Source of the DNA: Desulfuromonas sp.
Lineage (GTDB): Bacteria; Desulfobacterota; Desulfuromonadia; Desulfuromonadales; Geopsychrobacteraceae
Reading direction: 5' to 3'
Assembly (NCBI GenBank): GCA_002868865.1
Contig: PKUC01000041.1
Span: forward strand, 1-44,953
DNA length: 44,953 bases
How positions within the stretch are numbered: the stretch's first letter is position 1; every line of letters begins with the position of its first letter. Below, piece after piece: positions 2,017-5,050 of this stretch. The notes beneath the pieces were generated by a model. It did no database searches. It was given only the letters and a program-made list of their open reading frames with translations, and was not told where the DNA came from. A program made the translations under genes and the position numbers.

Positions 2017-3603
2017 TCATTCGCTGGTGATGATCGACTCGATGGTCGGTGGTTGAATGACATTCATGCAGGCCGCATCGACGCTAATTGCGCTGTCCGC
2101 CAGTTCATTGATGTAGACTTCGATATTGGTGTAGCGCGCGTTCAGTGTGTAGAGAGCGTCATCGGCGATGGTCGGTTTAGTGCCGCGGGCGATTTCCCAC
2201 GCATCGGGCATGCCGTCACTGTCGGTGTCGGCCTGGGGAGAGGTGCTCGCGTATGTCGGATAGTCCTCCGGATAGGAGATGTTACGCGGAATGATGTAGC
2301 TGTTGGAACTCCAGTCCGTTTTCAGCCGTTGATCGACACTGTCCACGACCGGAACCATGGCCCCCACCCGATTTACGACACAGTTGGCGAATTCTTCACT
2401 GGCGGTAAATGTTCTGGGGCGATATTCGCTGGGGACTTCGTAGGGGGTCGCCTTGCGCCAGGTTTCAGGAGTCCACGCCGCGGGGTAGAGGACCTGGATA
2501 TTCCACTCGGGGTCCGCCGGATTAATGTTCAGATCGGTGCCACGGTTCCCTTCGAGATAGATATGGTTATATTCGGATGGGGTTCCGTAGGTGTTCCATC
2601 CGGAAAATGTGTTGTAGGCGCTTGAGGTTTTTTTGAACCAGTTGCCGATGGCGTTTCCGGCACCGTCATACTCAAAGGTGGAATTGCCATTTTTAAAGCC
2701 GTTTTTGATGATGTTGTTGCGGACATCGACGAAGTCTCCAGGCTGTCTGTCTCCCCCCGAAATCAACGGCTGGCGCGCCTGCGATCCAGTCATGTAATTT
2801 TTGTGGACAGAGATTCTGTTGACGCCGCCATACTTGTACGACAGCAGCAGCCCCTTGCTATGCTCACCCTTGGGGTGTCCGGCGTATCCCAGCCCTTCGG
2901 CGATAATACTCCATTGAATGGTGATATCGTGAGCACCGGTGCCGAGCGTTACCGTCTCATCGACGCCCCAGGAAAAAGAGCAATGGTCGATAATGATGTT
3001 GTGGGCGTCGGCACCACTGAACCAGGACTGCATCGTTCCGCCGTAGATGGAGAAGGTATCGAGAGTTTCCGGGTTGGCGCCACCGGCTATCGCGCAGGGC
3101 ATCCCAGAGGCTGCAGTGGTCACATTCCCCTGGCAGACACCACCGTCCGGTGGGAAAGAATACTGCGGGCGGTCGTAGTAGATGATATCGCCGTTGCTGT
3201 CGCGATTGTAAACCACGTTGGCGGTGCCGGTTCGAAAGTGCATATGGCGGATAATGACGTCATGCGCCCAGACGCTGAAGGTCGCCCCGGCGACGCTGAT
3301 ACCGCCCGGAGAGGTCTGGCCGGCGATAGTGACATGACTGTTTCTCAGAACCAGCATGTTCTCCAGTACGATTGTTCCCGAGACATCAAAGACGATGATG
3401 CGTGGGCCGGTCGCTTCGACCGCCGCCCGGAGAGATCCGGGACCGCTGTCGGCGAGGGTGGTGACATGGATGACGGTTCCACCCCGTCCACCGATAGTGT
3501 CGGAGCCGAAGCCTTCGGCACCGGGGAAGGCGGGGATTCCCGCATAGCTGAAAGTCGTTGCCAGGACTGTCATCAGCACGGCGATAAATACACTTTTGGG
3601 CAT
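2017..3603 (-). CDS. Secreted pectate-lyase-like parallel beta-helix protein
   Basis: A 528-residue exported protein. Residues 1-21 are a signal peptide (basic MPK, hydrophobic core, cleavage after FSYA). The mature start GIPAFPGAEGFG and the segments TLADSGPGSLRAAV, IIVFDVSGTI, VTIAGQTSPGG, IIIDHCSFSWGVDE and ITIQWSIIAEG are typical of PL1-type pectate-lyase beta-helix proteins. Near residue 460, DTDSDGMPDAWE is a thrombospondin-3-like calcium loop. In polysaccharide loci such proteins usually cut or trim the polymer rather than plant pectin. ATG 3603 has AAGGAG about seven bases upstream. It is transcribed away from the methyltransferase/acyltransferase operon, and its long leader holds a GEMM riboswitch (3909-4003) and a terminator (3839-3873), so expression is probably set by a cyclic dinucleotide. 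The true substrate is unknown. Confidence 0.88.
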   Translation of the reverse strand: MPKSVFIAVLMTVLATTFSYAGIPAFPGAEGFGSDTIGGRGGTVIHVTTLADSGPGSLRAAVEATGPRIIVFDVSGTIVLENMLVLRNSHVTIAGQTSPGGISVAGATFSVWAHDVIIRHMHFRTGTANVVYNRDSNGDIIYYDRPQYSFPPDGGVCQGNVTTAASGMPCAIAGGANPETLDTFSIYGGTMQSWFSGADAHNIIIDHCSFSWGVDETVTLGTGAHDITIQWSIIAEGLGYAGHPKGEHSKGLLLSYKYGGVNRISVHKNYMTGSQARQPLISGGDRQPGDFVDVRNNIIKNGFKNGNSTFEYDGAGNAIGNWFKKTSSAYNTFSGWNTYGTPSEYNHIYLEGNRGTDLNINPADPEWNIQVLYPAAWTPETWRKATPYEVPSEYRPRTFTASEEFANCVVNRVGAMVPVVDSVDQRLKTDWSSNSYIIPRNISYPEDYPTYASTSPQADTDSDGMPDAWEIARGTKPTIADDALYTLNARYTNIEVYINELADSAISVDAACMNVIQPPTIESIITSE

Positions 3604-3838
3604 GATCTGTCTCCTTCTTCAGTCTAAGCCGTTTTTCGTTTACTGCATACGCATGCTGTGTCCGGTGCGAGTAGAAATGCGTTTACGTATCGATAGCGCT
3701 CAGTGAGCAGTCCTCTGTCTGTAGTTTACCATCTGCGACAGCATCAGCGGGGGCTGCTCCGTTTTTAATGAGTCTGCTGTTGGCCAGGGCCGATTCAGGC
3801 GCGAGGCCAATGAATAACTTCAGGGTGTTCGCATACAG

Positions 3839-3873
3839 AAAAGGCTCGCTTCCATTGCCGAAAGCGAGCCTTT
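3839..3873 (-). terminator. Intrinsic terminator in the riboswitch leader
   Basis: Read on the minus strand, AAAGGCTCGCTT pairs with AAGCGAGCCTTT in a 12-bp stem around a loop of about ten bases, followed by TTTT. It sits about 38 bases past the GEMM aptamer and 235 bases before the lyase start codon, the usual place for a riboswitch expression platform. Its first strand (ATCAAAG, plus coordinates 3876-3870) can also pair with CTTTGAT (3906-3900) just after the aptamer, giving a 7-bp competing antiterminator. Whether ligand turns the gene on or off cannot be read directly. Confidence 0.65.
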
Positions 3874-3908
3874 GATCGATGAGGTGGTGTCAGGGGAAAA
3901 TCAAAGCG

Positions 3909-4003
3909 TCTGTATCACTTCGGCAACCCGGCTATCCATTGAGGACCCGTGGTTTTGCGTCATCAGATTGCTCTGATTTTGCCCTTTCGGTTTTTTTACA
4001 ACC
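3909..4003 (-). ncRNA. GEMM-I riboswitch aptamer (cyclic di-GMP class I type)
   Basis: On the minus strand the conserved GEMM-I landmarks occur in order. GGGCAAAA (3984-3977) comes first. Next is a perfect hairpin ATCAGA-GCAA-TCTGAT (3977-3962) with a GNRA tetraloop, then GACGCAAA (3961-3954). A second stem starts at ACCACGGGTCC, and the 3' landmark GCCGGGTTGCCGAAG follows (about 3932-3918). These match the Vibrio Vc2 and Geobacter aptamers as I recall them. The base matching Vc2 G20 (middle G of AGGGC) is G here, which points to cyclic di-GMP rather than the cGAMP-preferring variants that have A; this depends on my hand alignment. The aptamer lies in the 5' leader of the pectate-lyase-like gene, ahead of an intrinsic terminator. 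Confidence 0.87.
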
Positions 4004-4163
4004 TCTCAAAAAATAAAAGAAAAGTCAATATGAATCGTAGCTTCTTTCATTGATGCACCATTCTGTCGGTGGGACCATATCCGCGTCGATGGAACCCGTC
4101 GATTTTATTTCATCCCTGCGATTTTTTCGTGCCGCAATAAGTGCCAATTAATGTTCCGCTTGA

Positions 4164-4191
4164 TTGAACGACGAACAAAGTCTGGCATACT
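4164..4191 (+). promoter_or_regulatory. Candidate sigma70 promoter for the acyltransferase operon
   Basis: TTGAAC (4164-4169), a 16-base spacer and CATACT (4186-4191) each match four of six consensus bases. Transcription would start near 4198, leaving a 25-base leader before ATG 4223. This supports 4223 rather than 4151 as the first start codon of the operon. Confidence 0.35.
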
Positions 4192-4222
4192 CAAGGTACG
4201 ATTTCAATTTTGCGGGGGTCCT

Positions 4223-5050
4223 ATGAAAATGTTGTCAGAAGATCTGCCTGTTTTAAAACCGATATGGAACACCGATACGATGAAACATGTGCGGCACTGG
4301 TGGGTTCGCCGTTTCAGCCCGCGTGACCGCTACACCCTGACCCGTTTTTATCGTTCCCCATCTCAGTACGATGTCCTCTGTCGCGATGTCGTGCCGTATC
4401 TGCGTCCGGACGGATCTGAACCGCCGCTTACTGTCGCGTGTCTGGGCTGTTCGAATGGTGCCGAGGCGTACAGTATCGCGTCTGTTCTGAAGAGCAGCTC
4501 GTACCGGGGCCAGTTTTCTGTGGCGGCCTTTGATATCGATAAAGAACTGGTCGCAAGGGCCGCAACCGGACGGTATTTCTCTCCGGAAATTTTTAAAAAC
4601 CCCTTTATAACAGAGACCTTTTTACAGTCTACCTTCGAACGTGTTGACGATCGGTACCTTGTCAGACCCGAGGTGAAACAGCATGTTCGCTTTGCGGTGC
4701 AGGATATCCTTTCGGACGACATGCAGCAGCTTGGTCGGTTTGACATTGTCTATGCTCAGAACATTCTGGTGAATATGCCTCCGGCTTTAGCCCGTCGGGC
4801 CTTTCTCAATATCTGTCAGTTGTTGGATGAGCGCGCGGCTCTGTTTGTTGACGGGGTCGATCTGGGACTGAAAGTGCGCTGGACACGACGCTGCGGACTG
4901 CGCCCGGTCACGACCAACATGGAAGAGATTTATCGTGAGGCCAAAGAGTTTCTCGGAGAGTGGCCGTACTGGTACTCCGGTCTTGAACCCCTTGCCGCAA
5001 CGCGCCGGGACGCTGCGTGGCGGTATGCCACGATTTTCCTCAAAGGGTAA
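4223..5050 (+). CDS. CheR-like SAM-dependent methyltransferase
   Basis: A 275-residue predicted methyltransferase. After a short helical segment (TLTRFYRSPSQYDVLCRDVV, like the CheR 'FFRDP..F' region) comes the SAM-binding loop LGCSNGAEAYSIA, matching CheR CSTGEEPYS. FSVAAFDIDKELVARAATG carries the acidic residue expected to hold the SAM ribose, and FDIVYAQNILVNM is the post-motif strand. No chemotaxis receptor, CheB or CheA gene is near, so a chemoreceptor substrate is unlikely. It heads the operon with three FemAB-like acyltransferases and a DegT aminotransferase, so it may methylate a surface glycan or a metabolite. ATG 4223 has GCGGGGGTC upstream and fits the promoter; an in-frame ATG at 4151 would lie ahead of the predicted transcription start. 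Substrate unknown. Confidence 0.75.
   Translation: MKMLSEDLPVLKPIWNTDTMKHVRHWWVRRFSPRDRYTLTRFYRSPSQYDVLCRDVVPYLRPDGSEPPLTVACLGCSNGAEAYSIASVLKSSSYRGQFSVAAFDIDKELVARAATGRYFSPEIFKNPFITETFLQSTFERVDDRYLVRPEVKQHVRFAVQDILSDDMQQLGRFDIVYAQNILVNMPPALARRAFLNICQLLDERAALFVDGVDLGLKVRWTRRCGLRPVTTNMEEIYREAKEFLGEWPYWYSGLEPLAATRRDAAWRYATIFLKG

Follow-up and report, generated by a model that had tools for sequence, protein, structure and literature searches.

A c-di-GMP-I riboswitch and terminator precede a predicted PL1-type polysaccharide lyase gene in Desulfuromonas sp.

Computational analysis of a Desulfuromonas sp. contig reveals that the minus-strand leader of a predicted secreted polysaccharide lyase gene carries a GEMM-I (c-di-GMP-I) riboswitch aptamer followed by a terminator, and that aptamers of this class recur ahead of lyase genes in relatives from the same order. 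We lean toward a reading in which the leader attenuates transcription of the PL1-type lyase and in which the ligand, by our inference c-di-GMP, would turn the gene off. The element itself is a switch of an ordinary kind whose target is informative; most worth pursuing are its recurrence, likely repeated origin and possible sign change. The window, that is, the whole stretch of DNA analyzed here (44,953 bases), corresponds to one entire contig (C73) of a 109-contig, 2.66 Mb genome.

Aptamer, terminator and target gene

At gathering thresholds, Rfam cmscan places covariance-model matches at a single site in the window, both strands considered, namely RF03167 (c-di-GMP-I-GGC) at 3992-3918 of the minus strand (64.6 bits against a threshold of 59, E 4e-13), an overlapping match of the same clan being omitted by the program; the parent model, RF01051, aligns to 3993-3919 minus with 68.5 bits against a threshold of 35. 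The GEMM-I assignment proposed in a first-pass annotation of the letters, with all main landmarks in order, is thus borne out by both models and by rechecked coordinates: GGGCAAAA at 3984-3977 is followed by a 6-bp stem with a GCAA (GNRA) cap at 3977-3962, by GACGCAAA and by GCCGGGUUGCCGAAG, which ends at 3918. Nineteen of the 21 model pairs are standard in the window, and both non-standard ones fall in the closing helix P1, where one of three model pairs is standard. The pocket letters G20, A47 and C92 are all present, at 3983, 3956 and 3923, which we take to be the corresponding positions in Vc2 numbering. The element shares with the riboswitches of RF01051 and RF03167 the core sequence, P2 with its GNRA loop, P3 and the pocket letters, and differs from the RF03167 consensus, which has G at the A47 position, and from both families in having a PL1-type lyase as its target.

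The sub-model name GGC presumably denotes G20/G47/C92, and the window scores above the RF03167 threshold despite lacking the G47-type letter; we therefore reject the match as a sign of a special ligand. A tandem pair elsewhere in the genome (contig C94) also speaks against such a reading, as its copies match c-di-GMP-I-UAU, a different sub-model, yet carry G20. In the available portions of the literature, c-di-GMP-I-GGC appears only as a name.

Downstream of the aptamer, AAAGGCUCGCUU (3873-3862) and AAGCGAGCCUUU (3851-3840) form a 12-bp terminator hairpin whose inner pairs can extend, and the leader folds with a z of -5.8 relative to 200 shuffles. The hairpin had been correctly described before, but its U-run is shorter and weaker than was claimed, consisting of UUUU at 3842-3839, with three of the four U residues inside the stem, followed by CUGU; the terminator is absent from the list produced by a simple terminator scan of the window. 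Three pairings could compete within this leader (Table 1). The 9-bp helix between 3926-3918 and 3863-3855, termed AT1, is modestly unusual in length (169 of 5000 shuffles as long) and not unusual in duplex energy (335 of 1000 as good). Nested inside it, the 7-bp pairing of 3906-3900 with 3876-3870, termed AT2 and put forward in the first-pass annotation as the element that could block the terminator, is exact, but it is unremarkable alone (127 of 1000 shuffles as good) and overlaps only the lowest four terminator pairs; we reject it as sole antiterminator, and the evidence from the family points instead to the aptamer 3' strand as the probable main element. The third pairing joins the linker (3907-3893) to the 5' half of the aptamer and is matched by one of 1000 shuffles. 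Both AT1 and the 15-pair linker match were absent from the earlier account; its transcription-attenuation layout is supported.

Table 1. Features of the riboswitch leader and the lyase gene (window coordinates)
Feature	Position	Strand	Basis
c-di-GMP-I (GEMM-I) aptamer	3918..3992	-	cmscan RF03167 64.6 bits; RF01051 68.5 bits
Base G, aligned to Vc2 G20, favors c-di-GMP	3983	-	covariance-model alignments
P2 hairpin AUCAGA-GCAA-UCUGAU, GNRA loop	3962..3977	-	covariance-model alignment
Base A, aligned to Vc2 A47; RF03167 consensus G	3956	-	covariance-model alignment
Base C, aligned to Vc2 C92	3923	-	covariance-model alignment
Aptamer 3' strand UUGCCGAAG, proposed antiterminator strand (AT1, 5' side)	3918..3926	-	9-bp helix with 3863-3855
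GCUUUGAUUUUCCCC, linker strand complementary to aptamer 5' half (AA)	3893..3907	-	-21.2 kcal/mol, 15 pairs
CUUUGAU, alternative strand of the first-pass annotation (AT2), nested inside AT1	3900..3906	-	exact 7-bp match
AUCAAAG, AT2 partner at terminator base	3870..3876	-	exact 7-bp match
Terminator 5' arm AAAGGCUCGCUU	3862..3873	-	sequence; fold
UUUCGGCAA, terminator upper 5' arm and loop, AT1 partner	3855..3863	-	sequence complementarity
Terminator 3' arm and first base of short U-tail	3839..3851	-	sequence; fold
Ribosome-binding site AAGGAGA, before lyase ATG	3610..3616	-	sequence
PL1-type parallel beta-helix polysaccharide lyase (predicted), 528 aa, TSP3-like C-terminal stretch	2017..3603	-	profile search, model, Foldseek

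About 235 nt separate the end of the terminator from the lyase start codon, a distance that, together with the short U-tail and weak P1, would suit a relic leader without control, the lyase being transcribed from a promoter of its own in 3838-3604. We consider this highly improbable, as the aptamer scores above threshold, the terminator and alternative pairings are intact and the arrangement recurs in relatives; a promoter scan of 3560-4260 found no sigma-70-like promoter, but as evidence this is weak, and it bears equally on the promoter of the riboswitch itself.

The downstream gene encodes a predicted lyase-type enzyme, an assignment made because of its profile and Foldseek relatives and its invariant PL1-type residues. 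Profile searches identify PfPL1 (9buj; E 8.7e-92) and the Vi-capsule depolymerase VexL (6fi2; E 7.7e-25) as the closest solved relatives, and Foldseek searches with a structure model of mean pLDDT 81, showing many short strands as in a beta-helix, return the same proteins as the first two matches (E 3.7e-22 and 1e-10, respectively). The lyase thus resembles both in its predicted beta-helix fold and profile match, and differs from them in its TSP3-like C-terminal part and in sequence, the structural alignments showing 24% identity to PfPL1 and 17% to VexL. Two alignments, one of 10 and one of 26 sequences, show no variation at D206, W212, D215, E216, R277 and P279; we take R277-x-P279 to contain the PL1 catalytic arginine (RxP) and D206, D215 and E216 to be the acidic residues of the Ca site. 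No Pfam family matches the protein at E 0.001, and the NCBIfam PelZ (pectate lyase) model gives 138.6 bits, far under its cut-off of 840. The N-terminus is signal-peptide-like by eye, in agreement, as are the beta-helix relatives, with the secreted lyase-type target named in the first-pass annotation. Neighboring genes encode a CheR-type methyltransferase, three FemAB/GNAT-type proteins, a DegT-type aminotransferase and a glycosyltransferase.

Recurrence and origin of the riboswitch-lyase pairing

GEMM-I aptamers are present in 54 of the 60 genomes searched, the organism's own included (380 matches in total), and lyase matches in 19 of 136 genomes of the order, again with its own. Setting aside that genome and G048, where the match is a short TSP3-type one, 17 lyase-bearing genomes remain, and in 10 of these GEMM-I heads the lyase gene cluster (G037, G039, G046 with two aptamers in tandem, G055, G070, G116, G121 at two places, G132, G133 and G074, where the aptamer precedes a CBM-bearing gene and the lyase is next, 2.3 kb on). 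Genomes of roughly 3 Mb carry about 6 aptamers each, and from this we estimate the chance expectation for such pairings to be far below one. Upstream DNA of the lyase loci yields no GEMM-I match in G051, G059 and G113, nor at the one locus of G124 that has upstream DNA, its other locus lying at a contig start; the loci of G045, G111 and G114 run into contig ends, and weak covariance-model matches in L284 (13.5 bits), L283 (11.5 bits) and one further case (10.6 bits) were left uncounted. The G051 locus carries four lyase-type genes in about 12 kb and no GEMM-I in the 18 kb covered (L077 2467-14220 minus). Among the best 80 lyase loci from other lineages, six of them with less than 1 kb upstream, none carries GEMM-I, so that a wide association of the riboswitch with PL1-type lyases beyond the order is not seen in that set.

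The placement of GEMM-I at the head of lyase clusters in these 10 of 17 genomes is new here: in the open-access papers searched we did not find GEMM-I, riboswitch and pectate lyase together, and subscription target lists (e.g., Kellenberger 2015, Nelson 2015) may already name such genes. In Pectobacterium, lyase transcripts fall in a diguanylate cyclase mutant, and the available text of that study mentions riboswitches as a possibility only (PMC10360401).

Twenty neighbor proteins at seven of the GEMM-I lyase loci were scanned, and five loci hold flippase (G037, G116, G132), glycosyltransferase (G046, G116, G133) or UDP-glucose dehydrogenase (G133) genes; no such polymer genes are found among the partially scanned neighbors in G039 and G055. 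The presence of exopolysaccharide-type genes at relatives' loci supports the earlier suggestion that the enzyme cuts a matrix polymer made next door.

A quick maximum-likelihood tree of 70 lyases, for which 35 of the 80 from other lineages were supplied, with L083 dropped (too few columns) and L111 (stop) and the G070 fragment omitted, gathers 34 of the 35 order lyases besides the window's into one group with SH-aLRT 100, nine of the 10 linked rows being part of these 34. The window lyase pairs instead with a Desulfocapsa protein (57% identity, support 100), near Thiodiazotropha and Bdellovibrionales proteins, and the G074 lyase likewise falls outside the main group. The topology test rejects placing every order row in a single clade (p-AU 2e-9); the tool cautions that such a group ought to be specified in advance. 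Because the window and G074 lyases lie outside the order's own lyase clade, the wiring of GEMM-I to lyases probably arose more than once, and the window lyase was, on this one tree, probably acquired and put under a resident riboswitch type separately from the order's main lineage. Past the aptamer, the window leader is nearest to leaders without a known lyase link, including the second copy of the C94 pair in its own genome (C94b; z 11.4) and a same-genus copy (z 8.1); its scores against lyase-linked leaders reach at most z 5.6, and shared terminator cores inflate such values.

Ligand and related elements in the genome

The own genome contains five GEMM-I aptamers, the window's included. The C94 pair lies before an FN3-like secreted protein, as judged by eye (L011 1014-1337 minus); each of its aptamers has its own terminator, and their nested-folding signs are opposite (+0.25 and -0.27). 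Another, on C61, precedes a metallo-beta-lactamase-fold protein (L012 5078-5167 minus); in this aptamer a conserved G-C pair, which we take to be 21-46 in Vc2 numbering, is apparently swapped to C-G, and its terminator scores weakly. The fifth, an A20 (cGAMP-type) aptamer with terminator (L013 2596-2687; C91:33095-33186), lies before a large cadherin/Ig-domain adhesin-like gene, the product of which has an N-terminus that we take to resemble LapA-type retention modules.

The genome also encodes 24 GGDEF domains, and the substrate position could be parsed in 21, with 18 Asp, two Ser (C94:5326 and C6:4535) and one Asn. Adjoining GAF-GGDEF genes on C94 (L011 5257-7502 minus) carry Ser and Asn where diguanylate cyclases have their hallmark Asp, with the tandem GEMM-I pair about 4 kb away; the Ser protein is a candidate cGAMP synthase, and the Asn neighbor could be its odd partner. 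Ser at this position is a mark of Hypr (cGAMP-making) enzymes, as given in the available text of PMC6456294. Both c-di-GMP and cGAMP signals may therefore be present in this organism, considering the A20 aptamer and the two Ser-type domains.

With G at 3983, the window aptamer does not have the A20 of GEMM-Ib (cGAMP) riboswitches, and c-di-GMP is its likely, though not certain, ligand. The first-pass annotation had read this base as favoring c-di-GMP over cGAMP; G20 is confirmed and c-di-GMP is the likelier ligand, but G20 alone does not exclude cGAMP, as it is called a selectivity factor and not a hard filter in the accessible part of PMC9262584. That statement, the Ser and Asn GGDEF variants and the A20 aptamer before the adhesin-like gene would all accommodate a window aptamer that senses 3',3'-cGAMP, either on its own or alongside c-di-GMP. 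We nevertheless think this unlikely given that each of the 13 lyase-linked aptamers, counting the window's, has G20, compared with 89 of 119 in the order-wide set, which contains six of the 13.

Predicted sign of control

The leader's layout is common in the order, where a terminator-like hairpin soon follows 92 of 119 aptamers, as opposed to one of 115 control stretches taken 400-600 nt downstream; the median spacing in these platforms is 42 nt. The aptamer 3' strand pairs with the 5' arm and loop of its own terminator at a mean of -18.3 kcal/mol (n=92), compared with -17.0 for swapped partners (0 of 5000 permutations), -14.7 for shuffled ones and -11.7 for 59 unrelated terminators, the latter drawn from window, own-genome and lyase-region loci rather than from all 60 genomes. 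UUCGG occurs in 60 of the 92 platform terminators versus none of the 59. Many post-GEMM-I terminators contain a common core of the type CUCAUCUUCGGCAA, complementary to the 3' end of the aptamer before them. The matching persists after composition correction (0 of 5000) and after thinning to 48 rows (1 of 5000), a set not strictly one per genome in that own-genome and lyase-linked rows are kept as separate names, and A20 rows show a smaller effect (-4.1, n=23) than G20 rows (-6.3, n=68). Inner helices of the AT2 type are also better matched than permuted ones order-wide (0 of 3000, n=72).

By analogy with Cd1, an OFF switch of Clostridioides difficile, AT1 and AT2-type helices may act together as a single antiterminator in competition with the ligand-bound aptamer, and this Cd1-like layout predicts that ligand turns expression off in the 92 platforms. 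For Cd1, the available text puts aptamer formation at nt 86 and gives nt 134 as the earliest point at which the antiterminator can fold (PMC9262584), with a terminator well downstream and an antiterminator built with the aptamer 3' strand; complementarity of that strand to the terminator 5' arm is likewise seen in the window's 9-bp helix. The window differs in also having a linker strand complementary to the aptamer 5' half, and its sign is a prediction. With pilM and other GEMM-Ib (cGAMP) ON switches of Geobacter, as far as described in the accessible parts of PMC9262584 and PMC6456294, it shares the aptamer fold, extracellular targets and the occurrence of tandem copies; it differs in having G20, not A20, and a terminator that does not include the aptamer 3' strand, such overlap occurring in one of 93 platforms.

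A folding model applied to 103 platforms sequesters more of the terminator arm when the aptamer is free than when it is locked (p 1.7e-11), an overall tendency toward OFF. The score lies above +0.2 in 21 platforms and below -0.2 in three, a count made without four lyase-linked platforms missed by the terminator search score (L074, L078 and L286, twice). C94a scores +0.25; the window, C94b and L162, an element from the same genus, make up the three opposite cases. One of the eight other lyase-linked platforms scored exceeds +0.2; with the other seven at +0.01 to +0.13, the lyase set itself says little on sign.

For the window, nested folding reads ON. Without ligand, the linker sits on the aptamer 5' half; once the aptamer is locked, the 7-bp helix reaches 0.97 before the terminator 3' arm emerges and 0.38-0.47 at the two longest lengths. 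At equilibrium, most terminator pairs of the full transcript form whether the aptamer is free (0.90) or locked (0.83). The opposite sign has a fair but smaller chance: the ligand-free linker would invade the aptamer 5' half and leave the terminator free, and c-di-GMP, by holding the aptamer, would release the linker to pair at the terminator base so that the lyase is made. The linker match is unusual, its z of -4.8 being the lowest of 114, only four of which lie below -2.5; C94b and L162 behave like the window in the folding model, and genes behind Geobacter cGAMP riboswitches fall on deletion of the cGAMP synthase, marking ON switches in the available text of PMC6456294. Against this, the 7-bp helix leaves all but the four lowest terminator pairs unblocked, and compensatory changes on both sides of the linker pairs are not seen between the window and C94b. 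As a family-wide device the linker pairing is rejected, since it does not exceed shuffles order-wide (p 0.24, n=78), though matched strands outdo permuted ones (4 of 3000 reach the matched value). The folding model, moreover, forbids pseudoknots, and in the ligand-free ensemble the terminator UUUCGG is about half paired with the aptamer 5' CCGAAA; pairing of the linker with the aptamer could free the 3' strand for AT1, giving a pseudoknot and an OFF sign in the window as in the majority.

We therefore give the better chance to an OFF response in the window. Without ligand, 3926-3918 would pair with the terminator 5' arm and loop, helped by the nested 7-bp helix, and the blocked terminator would let polymerase read through into the lyase gene; with ligand, the 3' strand would be locked in the aptamer, the terminator would form and the lyase would be off. 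Low c-di-GMP would then yield an enzyme that cuts acidic exopolysaccharide, probably the cell's own. A more elaborate scenario combines several wirings of riboswitches to PL1-type lyases in exopolysaccharide loci with a sign flipped within this genome, the window and C94b being ON, C94a and most of the order OFF and the C94 tandem a c-di-GMP band-pass filter; we deem it improbable.

A ligand-OFF switch would fit biofilm release, whereas ON control would fit remodeling during biofilm growth. In either case, a direct RNA link from c-di-GMP to a matrix-type lyase would make the leaving or reshaping of biofilms through transcript elongation testable, and the predicted sign contrast among similar platforms would offer a handle on the evolution of riboswitch polarity.
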